From a virus, in the IMG/VR virus record IMGVR_UViG_3300028569_000099, positions 1 to 33,821 of that record: a stretch of DNA of 33,821 nt, one strand, 5' to 3'. Each line of letters opens with the position of its first letter. Positions within the stretch are counted from its first letter, which is position 1. The notes below the pieces were generated by a model that saw only the letters and a list, made by a program, of their open reading frames with translations, ran no database searches and had not been told where the DNA came from. Below are positions 25,760-33,334 of the stretch, piece after piece. The translations under genes and the position numbers were made by a program.

Positions 25760-25983
25760 AGGTTCTCTCGATATTCGCCAAGAGCGCGAGCTACATTGGT
25801 GTTGAGCGAGTTTACGAACTTGATGCACATATCGCGCTCTGTTTTAACAATAGCAGGCATAGCCGCCATGATAAAACCGTCAGCCAGCTTTTGAAGGTCT
25901 TCCTCAAGGAAGTTGTAGGTCTCCTCAAGGTAGATCTTTCGGAAAGCTTCTTTGATTTGGTCTTTGTCAAGGTAGGGGTTCAT
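25756..25983 (-). CDS. Small helical protein, function unknown
   Basis: 75 residues, ATGA overlap with both neighbours. Mostly alpha-helical and charged (DQIKEAFRKIYLEETYNFLEED; DMCIKFVNSLNTNVARALGEY). No membrane segment or metal-binding motif. Sits right after the RecB-like nuclease gene, so it may be co-translated with it and act as a partner, but nothing in the sequence proves it. Confidence 0.7.
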   Translation of the reverse strand: MNPYLDKDQIKEAFRKIYLEETYNFLEEDLQKLADGFIMAAMPAIVKTERDMCIKFVNSLNTNVARALGEYRENL

Positions 25984-26741
25984 GTGTGTTTATTCTTAGC
26001 TTGCCAGTATTTGAGGAGGTGATAGAACATTTCCTCCCCGCGTTCGAGGTCTTCTTGAGACCATTCTTTGATGACCACGAGACCGGGCTCCGTGACCGAC
26101 ACAAAGACATTTGCGCATCTCGCATAAGGAAGATCTAACCCCAAGCGATAAGCGGCTAATTGCATAAGGTGCTCGTCATACGTCTCCACCTTGGCTGGGT
26201 CTGTAAACTCCTTTGTTTTGAAGTCAATCACAATTCCATCTCCGTCTTCGGAGTGCAGATCTAGCTTCCCACCAAACCCTAAATCATTGGCGAAGGACTT
26301 CTCAGACACCCACGTAGGCTCACCAAAGACTTTCTTGACCTCTTCGCCTACGCCCATTTGGTATTCCATCATGTCAGCAACCATGACACCTTCATACCAA
26401 CTCTCCAAAGCCGTGTGAACCTCTGTACCACGTTGAGCGGCGGCGCGAGCGTGTTCCCTTGAGTCCTTGATGACTCGTTGGACGTAGAGGTCTTCTGCCT
26501 CGTCTGGCGCCCTTGGAAGGGTCATAGCCGCGAGCATCATTTGGTTGAGCTTCCACGCCTCGAGCCCCGGCTTGGCGGCACAGCCAATGATCGTTGTGAC
26601 TGATGGAACAAGGTTTAGTTTGCGCGCATCAGCTAGTGTTGTGTTCCGTGGTTGCCCGTTCTTGGCTTCCACGGTGTACTTTGGTTGCCCATCTCTGGTG
26701 TACCAATGTGAGCTCTCGCTCGCTCTTACGGTTATTGACAT
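25980..26741 (-). CDS. RecB/Cas4-type PD-(D/E)XK exonuclease
   Basis: 253 residues from the ATG at 26741, which has AAAGGAAA just upstream; a start at 26762 would add seven residues inside the preceding gene. Motifs of the RecB nuclease family are in order: GTEVH with H109, GGKLDL with D161, IDFKTK with D173 and K175, and QLAAY with Q194 and Y198. Together they form the metal-dependent active site. Phage members process DNA ends for recombination or replication. It is in one operon with an SSB-like protein and a winged-helix-like protein, which fits a homologous-recombination module. No cysteine cluster is seen, so it resembles the exonuclease class rather than Fe-S Cas4. Confidence 0.85.
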   Translation of the reverse strand: MSITVRASESSHWYTRDGQPKYTVEAKNGQPRNTTLADARKLNLVPSVTTIIGCAAKPGLEAWKLNQMMLAAMTLPRAPDEAEDLYVQRVIKDSREHARAAAQRGTEVHTALESWYEGVMVADMMEYQMGVGEEVKKVFGEPTWVSEKSFANDLGFGGKLDLHSEDGDGIVIDFKTKEFTDPAKVETYDEHLMQLAAYRLGLDLPYARCANVFVSVTEPGLVVIKEWSQEDLERGEEMFYHLLKYWQAKNKHT

Positions 26742-27094
26742 GCAGTTTCCTTTAATTTCCAAAGCACTTTGGGTGATCCGTTAGATGACTTGGCTATGCC
26801 AAACCCGCAAGAGACAATGTGTTGAGCACGTCTAGCGGTTTGCACAATGTGTCCCCAAGCTCTGCCATCTGGTGGAGGGGTTAGACCCCTTCTTTCGGCA
26901 TAGGCTCTCGCCTCTTCAACCAAAAATGGTCGTGTTGTTGACCGAGCAAACTCGATCAGGAAAAGCTCAGCTCTTCCAGACCAGTCGCCCAGTTCCCTGT
27001 CAGCTCGATCAGAGGAAAGCTTAGCCATTTGATGACCTTTGCTTGGCTCAGAACCGAACATGTCAGCCGTAGATTTGTCTGTAGGGTGTTTCAT
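26732..27094 (-). CDS. Winged-helix-like phage protein next to SSB
   Basis: 120 residues from the ATG at 27094; an upstream TTG at 27100 overlaps the previous stop but is less likely. The N-terminal third is polar. The rest resembles a widespread phage helix-turn-helix domain: FLIEFARSTTRPFLVEEARA, PPPDGRAWGHIVQTARRAQ, IVSCGFGIAKSSNGSPKVLW. The RAWG segment and final KVLWKL strand fit a winged helix that could bind DNA. It overlaps the nuclease gene by 10 nt and follows the SSB-like gene. A role in replication or recombination is inferred only from this placement. Confidence 0.65.
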   Translation of the reverse strand: MKHPTDKSTADMFGSEPSKGHQMAKLSSDRADRELGDWSGRAELFLIEFARSTTRPFLVEEARAYAERRGLTPPPDGRAWGHIVQTARRAQHIVSCGFGIAKSSNGSPKVLWKLKETACQ

Positions 27095-27096
27095 GA

Positions 27097-27753
27097 TCAA
27101 AATGGCAAATCATCTTCCATGTCGTCAAAGCCGCTAGAAGGGGCTTTATCGGGCTTTGGAGCGGTTTTTCTGCCTTGGACAGCCTGCCACTCAGGTGAGT
27201 CCTCAATCATCGCTTTAAGACCCTTTCCGAAGGTTTCAAACAACTCAAGATCAGGTTCTGCGATACGGAACACTTGGTTAGGGTTGATGGCAGGGGGTAA
27301 ACCTGCGGACTTGATCACTGAGGGAACAGGGGCTACGCCCTTGACGTTGGAGTACATCTTGCCGTTCTTGCCCGGGCGCGGTATGACAGTCAACATGCAC
27401 CACGCACCAAGAATGCTTTGGATGTCAAAGCGACGCATCTCCGTGTCTGTGAAAGGCTTGTTACGCCAGTTTTGTAGGTCGATTCGAAGGTTAGCCTTCT
27501 CTGACCAACTCAGCGTGTAGTTCTTAAAAATCGCTAGGGGATCACCACGCTCAGTGACCAGCTCGTTCCCTTCGTCGTCTTTGCCGTGGAGTTCCCAACC
27601 AAGCATGATCTTGCGTTGGTGCTTCTCTTGACCTTCGTACTCAGAACGCTGGGTTCCTAAGTCGATGATGCGATAGCAACGTGCAAGGTGAAGACCTGCT
27701 GGCACGGGTTTGAAGTCGCCTATTGGCGCTGTGTTTTCTACAAAAAAGCTCAT
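27097..27753 (-). CDS. Single-stranded DNA-binding-like protein
   Basis: 218 residues; AAGGA lies a few nt before the ATG. The N-terminal 150 residues are strand-rich with RKIMLGWELHGKDDEGNELV, FKNYTLSWSEKANLR and WCMLTVIPRPGKNGK, like the OB-fold SSB-type proteins of many phages. The C-terminus is a Lys/Pro linker ending DDMEDDLPF, closely similar to the acidic tip of bacterial SSB that recruits replication and repair enzymes. It should coat exposed single strands and hand them to partners. It is co-transcribed with the winged-helix and nuclease genes, with stop/start overlaps on both sides. Confidence 0.8.
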   Translation of the reverse strand: MSFFVENTAPIGDFKPVPAGLHLARCYRIIDLGTQRSEYEGQEKHQRKIMLGWELHGKDDEGNELVTERGDPLAIFKNYTLSWSEKANLRIDLQNWRNKPFTDTEMRRFDIQSILGAWCMLTVIPRPGKNGKMYSNVKGVAPVPSVIKSAGLPPAINPNQVFRIAEPDLELFETFGKGLKAMIEDSPEWQAVQGRKTAPKPDKAPSSGFDDMEDDLPF

Positions 27754-27914
27754 GATTTTTCCTTAAAGATTTCGTTAAATTGGCTAGTAAACTGATTGAT
27801 AAACTGGTTTAATTTTGGGTCTGTTTTAGTTGCTTCCTCAAGTAAATATTTTTCGTATTCCTGCTGTAAAACAGGGTCTTTTTTCCATTCCTCGTACTCT
27901 TTGTTTGTAGCCAT
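27750..27914 (-). CDS. 54-residue helical protein, function unknown
   Basis: Begins MATNKEYEEWKKDPVLQQEY and ends FNEIFKEKS. GAGGA lies 5 nt upstream of the ATG, and the TGA overlaps the SSB-like gene start (ATGA). This is the exact spacing of the rest of the operon. The sequence is two charged helices without cysteines or membrane segments. It fills a space that would otherwise be a 170-nt gap. No family is recognised. Confidence 0.7.
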   Translation of the reverse strand: MATNKEYEEWKKDPVLQQEYEKYLLEEATKTDPKLNQFINQFTSQFNEIFKEKS

Positions 27915-27922
27915 GGTGATCC

Positions 27923-28132
27923 TCACTTATCTGATCCAAAAAAGAATGCCATTCCAATTTCGTCAGGGATCCGCGCCCCGCCGCTGTAAATGTGGTTGAT
28001 GTCCACTTTCTCGTTCATGCCATCAGCGATGCCCATGAAGTAGTGAAGGCTCTCTGTGTGCCAATCAAGCACCATGAGAATCCCGATGCGACCTTTGCTG
28101 GTGTCAAACCATAGGACGTCTTGTAAGTTCAT
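27923..28132 (-). CDS. Small protein, function unknown
   Basis: 69 residues, overlapping its upstream neighbour's stop (ATGA). Mixed strands with several aromatics: DVLWFDTSKGRIGILMVLDW, SLHYFMGIADG, MAFFFGSDK. It might be a small beta-barrel-type protein. Nothing catalytic is visible. Confidence 0.65.
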   Translation of the reverse strand: MNLQDVLWFDTSKGRIGILMVLDWHTESLHYFMGIADGMNEKVDINHIYSGGARIPDEIGMAFFFGSDK

Positions 28133-28326
28133 TCTTCGTCCTCTGGGTACTCTTCTGTGTCTTCGCGGTCTTCGTCTGTTTCAATTGCTGTGTTCTGAGC
28201 TTCTTGCTCGCGTATAGCCTTGTTGCGCTCTTCGAGCTCTTTCCACTCTTGGGGCGTACGCTTGGGATTGATAAAACCTTCAGGGCTTTCAGCTTCAAGT
28301 TCAGCCATAGTTTTGTGGGTCATCAT
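28129..28326 (-). CDS. Small highly charged protein, function unknown
   Basis: 65 residues from the ATG at 28326 (a second ATG follows immediately at 28323); TTTGGAG is just upstream. An open frame continues back to 28473, but that part overlaps two other genes and lacks a site. Composition is Glu/Lys-rich (WKELEERNKAIREQEAQN) with an acidic end (EDTEEYPEDEE). It is probably helical then disordered. Function unknown. Confidence 0.65.
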   Translation of the reverse strand: MMTHKTMAELEAESPEGFINPKRTPQEWKELEERNKAIREQEAQNTAIETDEDREDTEEYPEDEE

Positions 28327-28421
28327 GGTCTCCAAATAAAAATGTAAAGTGCTAAGATCACTGCACCGATAAAGAACAGGATCACGTTGATTCGCATGGT
28401 GCGGAATTCTTTGTCGTTCAT
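28323..28421 (-). CDS. 32-residue single-span membrane protein
   Basis: Reads MNDKEFRTMRINVILFFIGA and then VILALYIFIWRP. A short charged head precedes one membrane helix. GAGG lies about 6 nt upstream, within the end of the previous gene, and the TGA overlaps the next ATG. Position and spacing in a compact operon support a real gene. Such early phage miniproteins often modify the host envelope; this is not shown here. Confidence 0.6.
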   Translation of the reverse strand: MNDKEFRTMRINVILFFIGAVILALYIFIWRP

Positions 28422-28423
28422 AC

Positions 28424-28627
28424 TTACCTCGTTTTAAGCATTGCGTCAGCCACAGCCCATGCGGATTCTTCAATCCAAGACTTTCCTGCTAACAAGATTT
28501 GTTTTTCTAGCTTGGGGTTAGCAAGCATCCCTTGCATAGCTTTAGCCGCAAAGTAGTCACGCAATGTCATGCCTTGTTCGGTAATGTGTGATACGCCTGC
28601 TGGGGCAGGAAATGCTGGTATGTTCAT
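28424..28627 (-). CDS. Small conserved phage protein, function unknown
   Basis: 67 residues from the ATG at 28627, chosen because GGGAGG lies 6 nt upstream; an earlier in-frame ATG at 28645 has no such site. The C-terminal two-thirds is a pattern frequent in early phage genes: GMTLRDYFAAKAMQGMLANP followed by a helix and a short ADAMLKTR end. No function is known to me. Confidence 0.75.
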   Translation of the reverse strand: MNIPAFPAPAGVSHITEQGMTLRDYFAAKAMQGMLANPKLEKQILLAGKSWIEESAWAVADAMLKTR

Positions 28628-28628
28628 G

Positions 28629-28847
28629 TCAAACCTCCCACACAATCAGCACTGCGTACAGCGCAATCAGGAAGAGGGCGTAGGCAATCCAGCCAGCAAT
28701 GCGGCGCTGAGAGAACTCAGGCTCAATGTTGAGCAAAGCCATTTGCAGAAGTTCTGCGTCGTGACTCATGTGGTTGCGTTGGGGAGGGGTGTAGTTGCAC
28801 CCAATTTGAAGACCAGACTTGGTCGTGTAGGGAAGTTGTTTATTCAT
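28629..28847 (-). CDS. Small membrane protein (first gene of leftward operon)
   Basis: 72 residues from the ATG at 28847, preceded by AAGGAG at a good distance; a longer frame to 28913 would include the promoter. The N-terminal 50 residues are soluble (PYTTKSGLQIGCNYTPPQRN; AELLQMALLNIEPEF) and the end is a membrane helix (GWIAYALFLIALYAVLIVW). The next gene's ribosome site lies in its last codons. Early phage membrane proteins of this kind are often host-interaction factors. Confidence 0.7.
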   Translation of the reverse strand: MNKQLPYTTKSGLQIGCNYTPPQRNHMSHDAELLQMALLNIEPEFSQRRIAGWIAYALFLIALYAVLIVWEV

Positions 28848-28862
28848 AAGATTCTCCTTAAC

Positions 28863-28875
28863 CGCCGTATCGGCG
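28863..28875 (-). promoter_or_regulatory. Perfect hairpin at the 5' end of the leftward transcript
   Basis: CGCCG-TAT-CGGCG is a 5-bp stem with a 3-nt loop (reads CGCCG-ATA-CGGCG on the minus strand). It lies between the leftward -10 (28883-28888) and the AAGGAG ribosome site, so it begins within a few bases of the expected transcript start. It may protect the mRNA 5' end or be a protein target. Confidence 0.5.
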
Positions 28876-28882
28876 TACACGA

Positions 28883-28910
28883 ATCTTAACACGCAGTTAA
28901 AAGCAGTCAA
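28883..28910 (-). promoter_or_regulatory. Leftward early promoter with overlapping operator
   Basis: On the minus strand, TTGACT (28910-28905) and TAAGAT (28888-28883) are separated by 16 nt, a good sigma-70 match. A palindrome TTAAC-ACGCA-GTTAA (28886-28900, plus strand) covers the spacer and part of the -10, so a bound regulator would block the promoter. It drives the eleven-gene operon ending at 25529. Confidence 0.65.
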
Positions 28911-28940
28911 CACAATCCCGAGTAAACTGTAGGGTTTCTT

Positions 28941-28963
28941 TTAATTTAAAGTTAATGTATACT
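28941..28963 (+). promoter_or_regulatory. Rightward early promoter region with operator-like palindrome
   Basis: TTAAT-TTAAA-GTTAA at 28941-28955 matches the TTAAC-N5-GTTAA operator in nine of ten arm positions. TATACT at 28958-28963 is a good -10, but the -35 (TTTCTT, 28935-28940) is weak, so activation or weak use is possible. It would transcribe the HTH gene at 28985, giving autoregulation if that protein binds here. Confidence 0.5.
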
Positions 28964-28984
28964 TGGCGTCAAGGAAGAAAAAAA

Positions 28985-29188
28985 ATGAAATTGCGTGAGT
29001 ATTTTGAGACGGAACCGCTAGGCGCTAGAGGAGAGATGGCGGCGCATCTTGGCATCAGTTTGACATGGATGTCACTGTTGATCCACGAGCGTAGAACAGC
29101 GTCTGCCGCGTTAGCGGTTAAGATTGAAAAAGCAACACAAGGTTTGGTCACAAGAAAAGACTTGCGTCCTGATTTGTTTTTCGTGTAG
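28985..29188 (+). CDS. YdaS/Cro-like helix-turn-helix regulator
   Basis: 67 residues from the ATG at 28985 with AAGGAAG about 7 nt before it; an in-frame ATG at 28955 overlaps the promoter and is disfavoured. The helix-turn-helix spans about residues 15-40 (RGEMAAHLGISLTWMSLLIHE), followed by RRTASAALAVKIEKATQG and the end TRKDLRPDLF, the standard layout of YdaS-type Cro-family proteins. It likely binds the palindromes in this control region and represses early promoters. No long repressor of the cI type is seen in the window. Next comes a 100-nt leader and the YdaU-like gene. Confidence 0.85.
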   Translation: MKLREYFETEPLGARGEMAAHLGISLTWMSLLIHERRTASAALAVKIEKATQGLVTRKDLRPDLFFV

Positions 29189-29288
29189 AGTTTGAGGCAC
29201 GGCTAGGTTCTGGGTAGCTCCCTAAACCGAAAAGCGTTCCATCCCCGCCTGCCGCTGTTTCTTTTTGGGATGTGTTATTGGGATCGGT
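29189..29288 (+). other. Untranslated leader between the HTH gene and the DUF1376 gene
   Basis: 100 nt with no start-to-stop frame. It contains GC-rich runs that could pair (GGCACGGC near 29194 with GCCTGCCG near 29248), the local arm GGG-TAGCT-CCC and a T-rich run near 29260. It may be an RNA leader controlling the replication gene or only spacer. I cannot assign it to a known RNA family. Confidence 0.3.
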
Positions 29289-30026
29289 ATGCACTATTAT
29301 CAATTCAACATTGGCGACTACGCCAGTCACACGCGCCACCTCGATTTATACGAAGACTTGGCTTATCGTCGCCTGCTCGACATGTACTATCTACACGAAC
29401 GCCCGTTGAACGCCGATTCAACGTCCGTTGCTAAGCAAATTGGTATGCGAGATAAGGTTCAAGTTGTTCAAGACGTGCTCAATGAGTTCTTTCAGCTCGG
29501 AGAAGAGGGTTGGGTCAATGACCGTGCGGACAAGGAAATTAAGCATTTTCACTCCAAAATTGAGCAAGCATCACGCGCTGGTAAAGCATCCGCTGAACGT
29601 CGGAGTAACGCCCGTTCAACGGACGTTCAACCAACCAATAAACAAGAACCAATAACCAATAACCAAGAAACAGATAAAGTAGCTAAAGCTACTCCTGACC
29701 TCGGCAAGCCGAAGTCAGTGCCCCCTGCACCAATTCAGGAAATAGTTGAGATGTACAACACCATCCTTCCTGAACTGCCACAGACCATTGTTGTCAACGA
29801 TTCTCGTAAGAGGGCTATAGCCGCCAGATGGCGTGAGGTTGTCACTGCTGACAAACTTGACAGACAAGGTGGGCTGGACTTTTTCAAGTGGTACTTTGAG
29901 ATGGTTAAGACCTCAAAGTTTCTGACAGGCAAATCTAAGGACTGGAAGGCTGACATGGACTTTCTGTTCAACCCAAGCAAGTTTCCTCGAATCATCGAAG
30001 GCACATACCACAAGGATCAAAAATGA
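29289..30026 (+). CDS. DUF1376 (YdaU-like) replication-associated protein
   Basis: 245 residues from the ATG at 29289 (MHYYQFNIGDYASHTRHL...), which is the normal N-terminus of the family; an in-frame start at 29265 would add eight residues. Residues 1-85 are the DUF1376 domain (DLYEDLAYRRLLDMYYLHER; KQIGMRDKVQVVQDVLNEFF), a winged-helix-type region. A basic, Gln/Asn-rich linker follows, then a helical C-terminal domain (ARWREVVTADKL; GLDFFKWYFEMVKTSKFLTG), a pairing seen in phage replication initiators. It probably starts origin melting or loads the helicase. The ribosome site is weak; the next gene overlaps by ATGA. Confidence 0.8.
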   Translation: MHYYQFNIGDYASHTRHLDLYEDLAYRRLLDMYYLHERPLNADSTSVAKQIGMRDKVQVVQDVLNEFFQLGEEGWVNDRADKEIKHFHSKIEQASRAGKASAERRSNARSTDVQPTNKQEPITNNQETDKVAKATPDLGKPKSVPPAPIQEIVEMYNTILPELPQTIVVNDSRKRAIAARWREVVTADKLDRQGGLDFFKWYFEMVKTSKFLTGKSKDWKADMDFLFNPSKFPRIIEGTYHKDQK

Positions 30027-30445
30027 GTTACGCATCAGCTAAACAGCGCTACGCTGAAAAAACAACAGATACATTTGACGGCTCTGAAAGCCATGACTGC
30101 TTTGCCAATTGTTGCCCTATGGCTGGTGGGATCTCCACTGGCGGCAAATGGGTCTGTGCTTACCACCATCAGGCTACCGCGGACACATGGCCTCGTGTGA
30201 CTGAAGCCTTACGTGACTGCGAGAGCATACGTGTTGCGATCAACGAAGTTATGAAGATCGACATGATTTCTTGGGGCGCCATGGTCAATGGTTACCCACC
30301 CAAGTGGCAAGAGTTTGCCGCTCTGTTTGACAACGAGCCTGACCTTCAGCCAAACGAGCACGAGAAGATCCGCAAAACAAAGTACGAGTACCGCCTGCGT
30401 AATGAGCTGGCTATCCGTGCAGGCTTAGCAAAGAGGAAGGCATGA
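30023..30445 (+). CDS. Putative zinc-binding phage protein
   Basis: 140 residues, ATGA overlap with the replication gene. Residues about 26-50 contain a Cys/His group, C-x3-CC then C-AYHH (DCFANCCPMAGGISTGGKW VCAYHH split across the site), likely binding zinc. Helical segments follow (LRDCESIRVAINEVMKID; KWQEFAALFDNEPDL) and a basic end. Proteins of this look follow DUF1376 genes in phages and may assist helicase loading, which is inferred from position. No catalytic motif is seen. Confidence 0.65.
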   Translation: MSYASAKQRYAEKTTDTFDGSESHDCFANCCPMAGGISTGGKWVCAYHHQATADTWPRVTEALRDCESIRVAINEVMKIDMISWGAMVNGYPPKWQEFAALFDNEPDLQPNEHEKIRKTKYEYRLRNELAIRAGLAKRKA

Positions 30446-30660
30446 CAAAGCATGAAGCCCAAAAAATCCTCGACAAAATCCGCGAGGGGTATGGTCATGC
30501 CTACACCGAGGCTTGCGCCATCGAATGTTTGTATCTCACAGGAGACCTTGGAACACATGAGGCAGTGCGAAGCACGGGAATGGATGAGCAGGTACGAGAA
30601 GAAGGCTATCGAGAAAGGCTCCGCTGGCGCGCAATTATGGTGGCAAGGAGTAAAGAATGA
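30442..30660 (+). CDS. Small protein, function unknown; C-terminal half overlaps another frame
   Basis: 72 residues in this frame, starting with ATGA overlap. The first half (MTKHEAQKILDKIREGYGHA, then a short helix ending LYLTGDLG) looks like a normal phage protein. From about 30557 the frame reads less typically (Arg-rich REEGYRERLRWRAIMVARSK), while another frame there starts with ATG and looks coding. Either both genes overlap for about 100 nt or the real end is different. No function is known. Confidence 0.5.
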   Translation: MTKHEAQKILDKIREGYGHAYTEACAIECLYLTGDLGTHEAVRSTGMDEQVREEGYRERLRWRAIMVARSKE

Positions 30661-30778
30661 CATTGCAAAACGAAGAGGAAAGCCAGCCTGTGACGACCTT
30701 GTCCAAAGAATGCAAAATGAACGCAACTTGCGTAGAGTTGGACTTTCCCCCAGCAGAGCTGTTTCCCAACAGAGCTAA
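30557..30778 (+). CDS. Small helical protein in an overlapping frame
   Basis: 73 residues from ATG (MRQCEAREWMSRYEKKAIEK...) in the second frame, overlapping the gene before and the RusA gene after. The sequence resembles small phage proteins that start RxxCEARE and continue with IAKRRGKPACDDLVQRMQ. The frame stays open while the first gene's sequence becomes atypical. No strong ribosome site (GGA 5 nt upstream). Real coding is likely but not proven. Confidence 0.5.
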   Translation: MRQCEAREWMSRYEKKAIEKGSAGAQLWWQGVKNDIAKRRGKPACDDLVQRMQNERNLRRVGLSPSRAVSQQS

Positions 30779-31085
30779 GGGTGTTCATTGGGCAAGATTA
30801 CACAAACTGCGCGCAGACTATCGAGATAGCAGTTCGTGGTTAGCAAAACACCAACTCAAGGGTTGGAAACATGCAGGCAAAGAATTGATGCTTACACTAA
30901 CGTTTGAAATGCCTGACAAGCGTAAGCGTGATGCTGACAACTGCCTTGCCGCGGCTAAGGGAGCCTTGGATGGATTGGCTGACGCGATGAATGTGAATGA
31001 CCAGCTTTTTCAACCAATATTGATTTACCGCGTAGCGGGACAGAAGCCCGGCAAAATTTTGATCAAAATTGAGGAACAAACATGA
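30717..31085 (+). CDS. rusA: RusA-family Holliday-junction resolvase
   Basis: 122 residues if started at 30717 (E. coli RusA is 120); the in-frame ATG at 30657 would add 20 disordered residues. Hallmarks: VELDFPPAELFPN at the start, KRDADNCLAAAKGALDGL (aspartates D72 and D74) and NVNDQLF (D95), the acidic residues that hold the metal in RusA. It cuts four-way junctions in symmetric fashion to clear branched replicating or recombining DNA. It fits with the SSB-like and RecB-like proteins of the opposite operon and the Ref-like nuclease downstream. Next gene starts by ATGA overlap. Confidence 0.88.
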   Translation: MNATCVELDFPPAELFPNRAKGVHWARLHKLRADYRDSSSWLAKHQLKGWKHAGKELMLTLTFEMPDKRKRDADNCLAAAKGALDGLADAMNVNDQLFQPILIYRVAGQKPGKILIKIEEQT

Positions 31086-31435
31086 GCGAAAAACTTATTG
31101 ACCCTAACGACGCAGTGGACTTTATGATTGCCCACTCTGCAAAGTACGCCGAGGCTGAGGCTAACAAGGTGTTTATGGAGGAGCTGAGGAAGACAATCAA
31201 AGCTGAGGAAATGAAGAACGCTGAGATCTATGGCAACGGCGAGTACAAGACCGCCGCCATGCAGGAGCGCGAAGCCTATGCCTCCCCACGCTACAAAGAG
31301 CACCTAGAAGCCCTCAGACAAGCCGTACAGGAGCGCGAACGCCTTCGGTGGCTCCTCATAGCCTGTCAGGAAAGAATCGCTGTATGGCGCTCTATGGAGG
31401 CTTCTAACCGCCACGTTGAGAAGGCTACCCTGTAA
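31082..31435 (+). CDS. Conserved helical phage protein, function unknown
   Basis: 117 residues, ATGA overlap. Charged helices: NDAVDFMIAHSAKYAEAEAN, FMEELRKTIKAEEM, then AAMQEREAYASPRYKEHLEA and LRWLLIACQERIAVWRSMEA. The motif QEREAYA followed by aromatic and WRS.EA.NR is common in small proteins of phages with similar early modules. No fold is known to me. It lies between the RusA gene and a small protein preceding the glycosyltransferase. Role unknown. Confidence 0.7.
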   Translation: MSEKLIDPNDAVDFMIAHSAKYAEAEANKVFMEELRKTIKAEEMKNAEIYGNGEYKTAAMQEREAYASPRYKEHLEALRQAVQERERLRWLLIACQERIAVWRSMEASNRHVEKATL

Positions 31436-31701
31436 TGCCTTACGCGAAGCCCAACGATGACCAGCACGTTCTCTTTGGAGAGCAGGAGTCGTGGCGCGAG
31501 GAGTGGGCGGGTATGCCTGAATACGAGCAAAAGAACTTGCTTCCCGTCTACTCTCTTCGCGTGAATTTTGCCAGCGTAGAAAGCCTTCAGGCTTTTGCCA
31601 AGCTCATTGGGCAATCGGTGACCACCAAGACCAGCTCTGTGTGGTATCCCGCTCAGGAAAAAGCAACACTGGCAGACAAGCGATATGTCGATGAAGCCTA
31701 A
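31435..31701 (+). CDS. Small protein next to the glycosyltransferase, function unknown
   Basis: 88 residues, sharing a base with the preceding stop (TAATG). The C-terminal half (RVNFASVESLQAFAKLIGQS, then a WYPAQE stretch) resembles a small alpha/beta domain found in several phages beside DNA-modification genes. The first part is Asp/Glu-rich. It overlaps the start of the transferase gene by 17 nt, so the pair is probably co-translated and may cooperate. Confidence 0.6.
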   Translation: MPYAKPNDDQHVLFGEQESWREEWAGMPEYEQKNLLPVYSLRVNFASVESLQAFAKLIGQSVTTKTSSVWYPAQEKATLADKRYVDEA

Positions 31702-32554
31702 GCACCCGATCTACATCGTCTCCAAAGGGAGATGGGGGACAACGCTCACGGCAGATGCGCTTGAACGAATGGGCGCCAAGTACCGCGTGGTGGTCGAGGA
31801 GCAGGAATTCGATAACTACGCAAGTAGCGTAGATCCGTTAAGGTTGTTGGTTTTGCCGCAGAGATACCTTGATAGCTACGTGACGTGTGATGAGCTGGGG
31901 AATGCGAAGAGCAAAGGCCCCGGCGCGGCACGTAACTTCGCATGGGATCACTCCATCTCTCTGGGCGCCACCCGCCACTGGGTGCTGGACGACAACATCG
32001 ATGGCTTTCACCGCCTTAATCGCAACATGAAAATCAAGTGCGAAACGCCAGCAATATTCCGTGCGGCTGAGGACTTTGTCGAGCGCTATACCAACGTGCC
32101 TATTGCTGGGTTCAACTACTCTATGTTCGCCAAGCGTAAAGACACGCCTCCGCCGTTTGTTTTGAACACCCGCATCTACTCTTGCCTGTTGATTGAAAAC
32201 GCGCTTAAACACCGCTGGGAGGGGCGCTACAACGAAGACACACACCTATCCCTGCGCGCACTCAAAGACGGCATGTGTACGGTGCAGTTCAATGCGTTTT
32301 TGCAGAACAAGGTTAGAACCCAATCGATGGGTGGCGGCAACACTGAAGCCTTCTACGCAAGCGAGGGCACTATGCCCAAGTCACAGATGCTCGAGGAGTT
32401 GCACCCAGACGTCGCAAGGGTGGTGTGGAAGTTTGACCGCTGGCACCACTTTGTTGACTACAACAGATTCAAAAAGAACAGGCTTGTCAAGCGTGACGGG
32501 CTTGTCATCCCTGAAGGCACAAACGAATACGGTATGAGGCTCGTCAATGAATAA
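31685..32554 (+). CDS. TET-associated-type glycosyltransferase (TAGT-like)
   Basis: 289 residues from ATG 31685 (ATG at 31691 is also possible). Landmarks match the TAGT family of phage DNA-base transferases: HPIYIVSKGRW at 7-17, YRVVVEEQEFDNYAS near 33-47, GPGAARNFAWDHS at 78-90, HWVLDDNIDGFHRL with the metal-binding DDN at 102-104, then FRAAEDFVERYTNVPIAGFN and the acidic YNEDTHLSLRAL. It is expected to move a sugar from a nucleotide donor onto a hydroxylated cytosine or similar base in phage DNA, protecting it from restriction. No TET/JBP oxygenase is seen in this window; it may be elsewhere in the genome or the acceptor differs. It overlaps its neighbours on both sides. Confidence 0.75.
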   Translation: MSMKPKHPIYIVSKGRWGTTLTADALERMGAKYRVVVEEQEFDNYASSVDPLRLLVLPQRYLDSYVTCDELGNAKSKGPGAARNFAWDHSISLGATRHWVLDDNIDGFHRLNRNMKIKCETPAIFRAAEDFVERYTNVPIAGFNYSMFAKRKDTPPPFVLNTRIYSCLLIENALKHRWEGRYNEDTHLSLRALKDGMCTVQFNAFLQNKVRTQSMGGGNTEAFYASEGTMPKSQMLEELHPDVARVVWKFDRWHHFVDYNRFKKNRLVKRDGLVIPEGTNEYGMRLVNE

Positions 32555-32819
32555 CACTCTCACAGCAAAAGAACGCGCCTACGTGGGGCTTGTCAAAGAG
32601 CTCCCGTGCTCTGTGTGCGACCAAGAGGGGCCCAGCGACGCGCACCACGTCAAACAGCATAGGCAGTACACCGTCATAGCCTTGTGCAAGTCCTGCCACC
32701 AAGGGAGCAAGATGGGCTGGCATGGGGAGCGTAGGGCGTGGGCAATAGCCAAGATGGAGGAGATAGACGCCCTGAACATCACCGTAAAACGCATCATGGA
32801 GCTGGTTTTAAAGGGTTAG
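32547..32819 (+). CDS. Ref-like HNH nuclease
   Basis: 90 residues, overlapping the previous stop by 8 nt. C21/C24 (CSVC) and C47/C50-H51 (CKSCH) form a treble-clef site with H33/H34 (DAHHV) in the active-site strand and H59 (GWHGERRAW). This matches the Ref family of RecA-dependent nucleases carried by phages (P1 Ref). It cuts single strands at RecA filaments or otherwise joins the recombination set. The C-terminal helix (AKMEEIDALNITVKRIMEL) is typical. It ends the rightward early operon; no clear terminator follows before the next promoter. Confidence 0.8.
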   Translation: MNNTLTAKERAYVGLVKELPCSVCDQEGPSDAHHVKQHRQYTVIALCKSCHQGSKMGWHGERRAWAIAKMEEIDALNITVKRIMELVLKG

Positions 32820-32851
32820 GGAAAACACCTACAAAAATATTTATAAAAAGA

Positions 32852-32882
32852 TTGCACAAGCGTTTTAACTTCATGTTAAGAT
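32852..32882 (+). promoter_or_regulatory. Rightward promoter with operator matching the leftward early promoter
   Basis: TTAAC-TTCAT-GTTAA at 32865-32879 repeats the operator near 28886, and TAAGAT (32877-32882) is the -10. The 20-base block beginning TTTTAACT and ending TGTTAAGAT (32863-32882) agrees with the leftward promoter at 18 of 20 positions. The -35 is TTGCAC (32852-32857), with a long spacer of 19 nt. A short perfect palindrome CAGGT-T-ACCTG (32901-32911) follows in the leader. Confidence 0.6.
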
Positions 32883-32924
32883 CCTAATCACTGCAATAAG
32901 CAGGTTACCTGAAAGACAAACATC

Positions 32925-33239
32925 ATGACTACAGCAACATTGATCCAAACAGAAGCTCTGATCTCTACAATCACTTCTGACATCGACTCACTCTACGTGC
33001 TCGACCAACAAGCCAAAGCATTGGCTGAGCAAATCAAAGCTCTCAAAGATTCCATCGCCAACAAGTATGGCGAAGGCGAGCACAAAGGCGAACTCCACAG
33101 CGTAACTGTTCAGTTGGTTCCAATCTCTGGCACGGTTGACTACAAAAAGCTTTGCGTGGCTTACGGCATTCAAGACGATGTTCTTGACACATACCGTAAA
33201 GCAGGTCGCGCTGACATACGTGTGACACCATCAAAATAA
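32925..33239 (+). CDS. Conserved coiled-coil phage protein, function unknown
   Basis: 104 residues. Helical N-terminal part with heptads (YVLDQQAKALAEQIKALKDS), then strands (SVTVQLVPISGTVDYKKL) and a C-terminal polar end (KAGRADIRVTPSK). It is monocistronic: it has its own promoter with operator and its own terminator, so it may be made early and abundantly under the YdaS/Cro-like regulator. It may bind DNA or inhibit a host enzyme, but no motif shows this. Confidence 0.65.
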   Translation: MTTATLIQTEALISTITSDIDSLYVLDQQAKALAEQIKALKDSIANKYGEGEHKGELHSVTVQLVPISGTVDYKKLCVAYGIQDDVLDTYRKAGRADIRVTPSK

Positions 33240-33242
33240 ACA

Positions 33243-33264
33243 GGGGGCGAAAGCCCCTTTTTTT
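33243..33264 (+). terminator. Rho-independent terminator after the coiled-coil gene
   Basis: GGGGC at 33244-33248 pairs with GCCCC at 33253-33257 around a GAAA tetraloop, followed directly by seven T (33258-33264). It starts 4 nt after the gene's stop codon. Very strong. Confidence 0.92.
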
Positions 33265-33334
33265 ATTCTTTTTTTTGACATAAAACTAGCCTACGATTTC
33301 ATGGCAACAATCGGTTGCACTAATGGGGTAAATC

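Follow-up and report, generated by a model that had tools for sequence, protein, structure and literature searches.

The early region of IMG/VR virus record IMGVR_UViG_3300028569_000099, analysed over its whole length of 33,821 bp (hereafter the window), contains three short palindromic sites, each beside an early promoter. These promoters precede a leftward recombination operon, a gene encoding a 67-amino-acid YdaS/Cro-like helix-turn-helix (HTH) protein and a single gene starting at position 32925, and two of the predicted mRNAs would begin with a hairpin. The features, in window coordinates, are the following.

25980-28645, minus strand: remainder of the leftward operon, with small proteins, a phrog_862 protein (27097-27753) and an exonuclease (25980-26762)
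28629-28847, minus strand: first gene of the leftward operon, 72 amino acids, no function assigned
28863-28875, minus strand: hairpin CGCCG-ATA-CGGCG, beginning 1 nt past the +1 predicted for the leftward transcript
28883-28910, minus strand: leftward promoter, with -35 TTGACT (28910-28905), a 16-bp spacer, -10 TAAGAT (28888-28883) and predicted +1 A at 28876
28886-28900, minus strand: candidate operator OL, TTAACACGCAGTTAA, whose right arm (minus strand) belongs to the leftward promoter's extended -10, TGTTAAGAT
28941-28955, plus strand: candidate operator of the HTH promoter, TTAATTTAAAGTTAA, directly upstream of the -10 TATACT (28958-28963)
28985-29188, plus strand: YdaS/Cro-like HTH protein, 67 amino acids, the proposed reader of the sites, with a predicted recognition helix at residues 26-33
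32865-32879, plus strand: candidate operator before the 32925 gene, TTAACTTCATGTTAA, with its right arm within the extended -10 TGTTAAGAT and the -10 at 32877-32882
32891-32903, plus strand: hairpin CTGC-AATAA-GCAG, placed where the 32925 mRNA is predicted to start
32925-33239, plus strand: single gene under the candidate operator, 104 amino acids, kept in these phages, no function assigned
33244-33264, plus strand: intrinsic terminator GGGGC-GAAA-GCCCC-T7, predicted from sequence, ending the 32925 unit

Palindromic sites at the early promoters of the window

A scan of the whole window, as the original prediction had proposed, located the exact motif TTAAC-N5-GTTAA at 28886-28900 and 32865-32879 and nowhere else, in agreement with the perfect 5-bp arms described for these two sites, and the site at 28941-28955 differs from it by one mismatch. 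The degenerate form TTAAY-N5-RTTAA occurs at exactly these three places. Compared with 300 dinucleotide shuffles of the window, the exact motif was observed twice against an expected 0.03, the degenerate form three times against a mean of 0.13 (three were reached in 0/300 shuffles), and TTTTAAC-N5-GTTAAGAT, which is common to both perfect sites, twice against 0, likewise in 0/300 shuffles. A loose scan allowing two mismatches gave the chance level (20 observed against 15) and therefore strict matches alone count.

Regarding the position of the sites, both perfect sites do lie on -10 boxes, with their right arms falling within the extended -10 TGTTAAGAT. The 20-mers TTTTAACTGCGTGTTAAGAT (minus strand) and TTTTAACTTCATGTTAAGAT were recounted and are identical at 18 of 20 positions, the same figure as previously noted for these sites on opposite strands, and the shared extended -10 accounts for part of this identity. 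The third site stands before the -10 of the HTH gene, as had been described, and additionally matches the family consensus TAAY-N5-RTTA with zero mismatches. The presence of the three sites in the window is confirmed.

Conservation of the sites and the proposed reader

Relatives were collected via the 32925 protein, the HTH protein and more distant HTH homologues. No close relative of the operator region was found in the annotated phage collection. In the upstream regions of the 32925 homologues, which were taken irrespective of the motif (58 distinct promoters), TAAY-N5-GTTA is kept in 52, and spacers of 1-4 or 6-9 instead of 5 occur in 0 or 1 case each; the arms are essentially invariant, spacer bases 1-2 are mostly TT, and positions 6-7 and most of the flanks vary. 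Similarly, among 29 distinct close relatives the site at the HTH (rightward) promoter (28941-28955 in the window) is kept in 28 and the site at the opposing leftward promoter (28886-28900) is kept as TAAC-N5-RTTA in 27, in both cases with a variable N5. These relatives support the single regulon originally suggested, in that the site precedes the HTH gene, the 32925 homologue and the recombination operon read leftward. Larger relatives have ~4-6 operator-bearing promoters clustered in the early region, the sites lying ~45 nt before the start codon, at the head of several single-gene units in addition to the 32925 homologue and the phrog_862/exonuclease operon. Across 16 records, 49 of 81 occurrences of TAAY-N5-GTTA are intergenic though intergenic DNA makes up 7.9% (binomial p ~3e-33), and given this strong bias the motif is not spread inside genes away from promoters, the pattern that had been named as contradicting the regulon.

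The 67-amino-acid protein matches the Pfam family YdaS_toxin (PF15943; 8e-13, 48.4 bits, above the cut-off of 30) and was modelled by AlphaFold2 with a predicted local distance difference test (pLDDT) score of 92.6. The best fold matches of this model are YdaS of CP-933P, 8co2 (template modelling score, TM, 0.89) and 8c7k, followed by the Cro of Xfaso 1 (3bd1), and the identity with CP-933P YdaS is 35-37%. The HTH gene has the phrog_862 protein and the exonuclease as neighbours. A match to the HTH profile was found in 22 of the 33 records with the 32925 gene, one in each, including nearly all of the long records.

An unbiased enumeration of gapped palindromes near HTH homologues gave one top 5-mer class per clade, TTAAC-N5-GTTAA (that is, TTAA-N7), TCTAA-N7-TTAGA and TTGAA-N7-TTCAA, all three of identical geometry. 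Operator type could be clearly assigned for 55 distinct HTH proteins. At position 30, 17/17 proteins of the TT type carry Ser and 28/28 of the CT type carry Gly, and the pair Glu27/Lys31 accompanies the TG-type operator in 8 of 10 proteins; residues 27, 30 and 31 all fall inside the predicted recognition helix. The residue-30 rule also fits locus L117 (Gly30, CT sites), loci L118-L120 (Pro or Ala at position 26, Ser30, TT sites) and locus L393, where the protein body is mostly CT-clade-like and yet Ser30 occurs with TT operators. Motif, promoter position, conservation and the link to the recognition helix are direct observations. The YdaS/Cro-like protein, already put forward in the original prediction, is the probable reader of the sites, a predicted binding that finds support in the fold, in synteny and in the tracking of operator type with the recognition helix.

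Hairpins at the predicted 5' ends of early mRNAs

The original prediction made no mention of a hairpin where the mRNAs are predicted to start. In alignments not chosen for pairing, the proportion of paired cells is 98.6% for the leftward hairpin (29 relatives, compensatory change in 4 of 5 pairs) and 98.4% for the 32925 hairpin (31 distinct homologues, compensatory change in 3 of 4 pairs, 14-51% pairing in slid controls); over both alignments the pairing in slid controls was 14-64%. The HTH promoter in the window has no such hairpin. A stem starting exactly 11 nt past GTTA, which is 1 nt past the expected start A, is present in 48% of 242 distinct operator promoters against 2% when shuffled. 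When the presence of an extended -10 together with a start codon was the sole basis for picking promoters, stems started 7 nt past the -10 hexamer in 67% and 8 nt past it in 41% of those with an operator (one promoter may count at both distances), and in ~3% of those without. With the stem 7-8 nt past the -10, it would lie within ~0-2 nt of the 5' end of the transcript as given by predicted start sites. The stem sequences are varied, which favours an RNA structure over a further site for a protein.

In Escherichia coli, mRNAs are stabilised by 5'-end hairpins, which hinder conversion by RppH (PMC3997798), and for this reason mRNA stabilisation is our leading guess for the role of the hairpins found here, the alternatives being an effect on translation or a site for an RNA-binding protein. 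The open-access literature yielded nothing specific on 5' hairpins of phage early mRNAs, and a conserved 5' RNA hairpin linked to an operator appears to be undescribed so far.

Two further observations concern leader structures. The promoter of the 33335 gene (33276-33318, TTGACA...TACGAT) has a stem, GCAAC-AATCG-GTTGC, 6-7 nt past the -10, a placement resembling that in the early promoters, and has no operator. In some relatives (L094:5560-6000, L099, L101:5650-5990, L109:5730-5999 and L402-L520) the HTH leader is a modular structured RNA of 100-400 nt, in which GTTGGTG-[variable]-CACCAACAAC alternates with ACACGCATGGGGAYTG-[variable]-CARTCCCCAGCCGTGT; certain inserts recur in it, of which some are tRNA-like. 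Its core is found in at least ~120 IMG/VR stretches; the leader is not in the window, and that of L094 had no Rfam match even at E<=1.

Regarding the remaining genes, the 104-amino-acid protein occurs on many freshwater phage contigs with ~62-95% identity, and its gene nearly always has the candidate operator in front of it; the model of the protein (pLDDT 56.8) was too poor for a fold search, a long N-terminal helix is predicted, and PHROG gave weak hints only (phrog_434, RecE-like, E 0.003). A PHROG search with the 72-amino-acid leftward protein was without match. No Rfam family reached its gathering score in the window, where two matches were sub-threshold, including an int-alpA RNA (RF02996; 29.6 bits against a gathering score of 35.8, E 0.0037) at 29196-29272, between the HTH gene and a DUF1376/replication-initiation gene. 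A TET-associated glycosyltransferase gene (31685-32554, Pfam TAGT 4e-47), which resembles beta-glucosyl-HMC-alpha-glucosyltransferases, suggests modified bases in the phage DNA, and a homing-endonuclease-like gene (861-1493, phrog_314, 1e-22) sits among tail genes.

Interpretation and comparison with known systems

We consider it likely that a single phage-encoded repressor of the Cro/YdaS type, the 67-amino-acid protein at 28985, uses these sites as its operators. A dimer of this repressor would bind TAAY-N5-RTTA at the leftward promoter, at that of its own gene and at that of the 32925 gene, in each case at the -10 or adjacent to it, and would block host RNA polymerase there; with repressor accumulating from its own promoter, early transcription would be turned off, its own synthesis included. 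Binding, repression and timing are proposed here from the position of the sites and from what is established about Cro and YdaS. The regulator is of a known kind in a variant setting, in which no CI was found, the operators are single and dispersed, and 5' hairpins are linked to them.

Several points weigh against this reading. In a search-space control allowing any shared 5-bp gapped palindrome class in early intergenic DNA, 64 of 2000 shuffles did as well, so that the arrangement is only moderately unlikely and proof rests on conservation in the relatives and not on the window alone. Operator type changes about three times on the HTH tree, so that residue 30 offers one to two independent contrasts and the statistical power for its relation to operator type is low; shared ancestry could be the source of the correlation, and columns outside the helix (12 and 16) correlate equally with operator type. 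The Glu/Lys pair is missing from the two TG loci L122 and L057, an operator-like site occurs in record G011 although no HTH match was found there, and record G008 holds a second HTH_3 protein, the only HTH_3 match elsewhere.

The palindrome might be a by-product of the extended -10 consensus (TGTTANNNT) combined with a chance upstream TAAC, with no repressor involved. The right arm is indeed the TGTTA of the extended -10, and by column profile the promoter consensus makes up much of the 18/20 identity. This is nevertheless very improbable, as the left arm TAAY is held at the 5-bp spacer in the great majority of 32925-homologue promoters while positions 6-7 and most flanks vary, the HTH-promoter site is retained in nearly all close relatives even though it falls outside the -10, and the arms of the Glu/Lys clade change jointly to TTGAA..TTCAA. 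That the operators are real and are read by a regulator of the host or by a phage protein that went unrecognised is unlikely as well, if less so: operator type and HTH clade might co-segregate with phage clade, given the three tree changes, and G008 has its extra HTH_3 protein, but in the clade of the window it is the HTH gene itself that the sites flank, nearly all records are without another HTH_3 or S24 match, and operator type follows the helix residues even in L393, with its body of the other clade.

A third alternative is that the HTH protein activates transcription, or that it is a repressor whose sites are also used by a CI-like repressor that escaped detection, in temperate phages with a lambda-like switch. 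Such sharing occurs in CP-933P, whose YdaS has sites in common with the CI-like PaaR2 (PMC8630535). We regard this as rather improbable, since neither an integrase (Phage_integrase, PF00589) nor Peptidase_S24 (PF00717), the mark of a CI-like repressor, was matched in 17 records, which may be fragments, and since the sites overlap the -10, a repressing position. Moreover, 84,980 bacterial and archaeal genomes contained two homologues of the 32925 family only, both on contigs of metagenome-assembled genomes (27 and 55 kb) labelled as betaproteobacteria. From these absences and these two contigs, the phage is probably a virulent phage of betaproteobacteria. With no CI partner found, the Cro/YdaS-type repressor would govern a lone early shut-off regulon and not a lysis-lysogeny switch.

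More tentatively, and with somewhat more doubt than belief, a probably virulent freshwater phage group may share a composite cassette, in which a Cro-type operator is fused to an extended -10 with a fixed start, and a covarying hairpin forms the first nucleotides of the mRNA and shields it from 5'-end-dependent decay; this cassette would have been copied to many single-gene units, its operator co-evolving with three recognition-helix residues. Repression would then stop synthesis while the hairpin would keep existing early messages alive. The analysis provides a testable regulatory circuit for an abundant, uncultivated phage group, with a Cro-type repressor apparently without CI and dispersed single operators, as well as a natural set of operator variants tracking a few recognition-helix residues. 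The conserved 5' hairpin could explain protection of early messages in such phages, and the signature of an operator on an extended -10 with a hairpin 7-8 nt further on is usable for spotting early promoters in unannotated phage contigs.

Stabilisation of mRNA by 5'-terminal stem-loops was reportedly described by Emory, Bouvet and Belasco in 1992. In E. coli, a stem-loop positioned no more than 1-2 nt from the 5' end hinders both conversion by RppH and 5'-tethered RNase E (PMC3997798). In contrast to these known stem-loops, those found here recur in the early promoters of one phage group, have covarying stems and are tied to operators, and no description of such a set was found in the open-access literature.

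Regarding the regulator, YdaS of the E. coli element CP-933P (8co2/8c7k) shares its Pfam family and fold with the 67-amino-acid protein. It is the DNA-binding Cro equivalent and footprints on its own and the divergent promoter (PMC8630535); the YdaS region has 18-bp palindromes with the half-site consensus GTTTAGTAA (PMC8630535), the TTTA part of which resembles the TTTAAY of the window phages. In CP-933P, however, the YdaS region is shared with CI-like PaaR2, ydaS is followed by ydaT and the element is a cryptic prophage, whereas in the window phages no CI or integrase was found and single operators sit on promoters several kb apart. The arrangement is also like lambda Cro with PL and PR, with a small HTH repressor first on the rightward side, operators on both early promoters and probable autorepression. 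Unlike in lambda, no CI, clustered triple operators or PRM were detected, and extra single-gene promoters carry the operator. For related Cro proteins, half-sites are said to track recognition-helix residues in the Cro/operator recognition code of the Cordes laboratory; compared with those studies, the proteins here belong to uncultivated phages and the residues concerned are different ones (27, 30 and 31).

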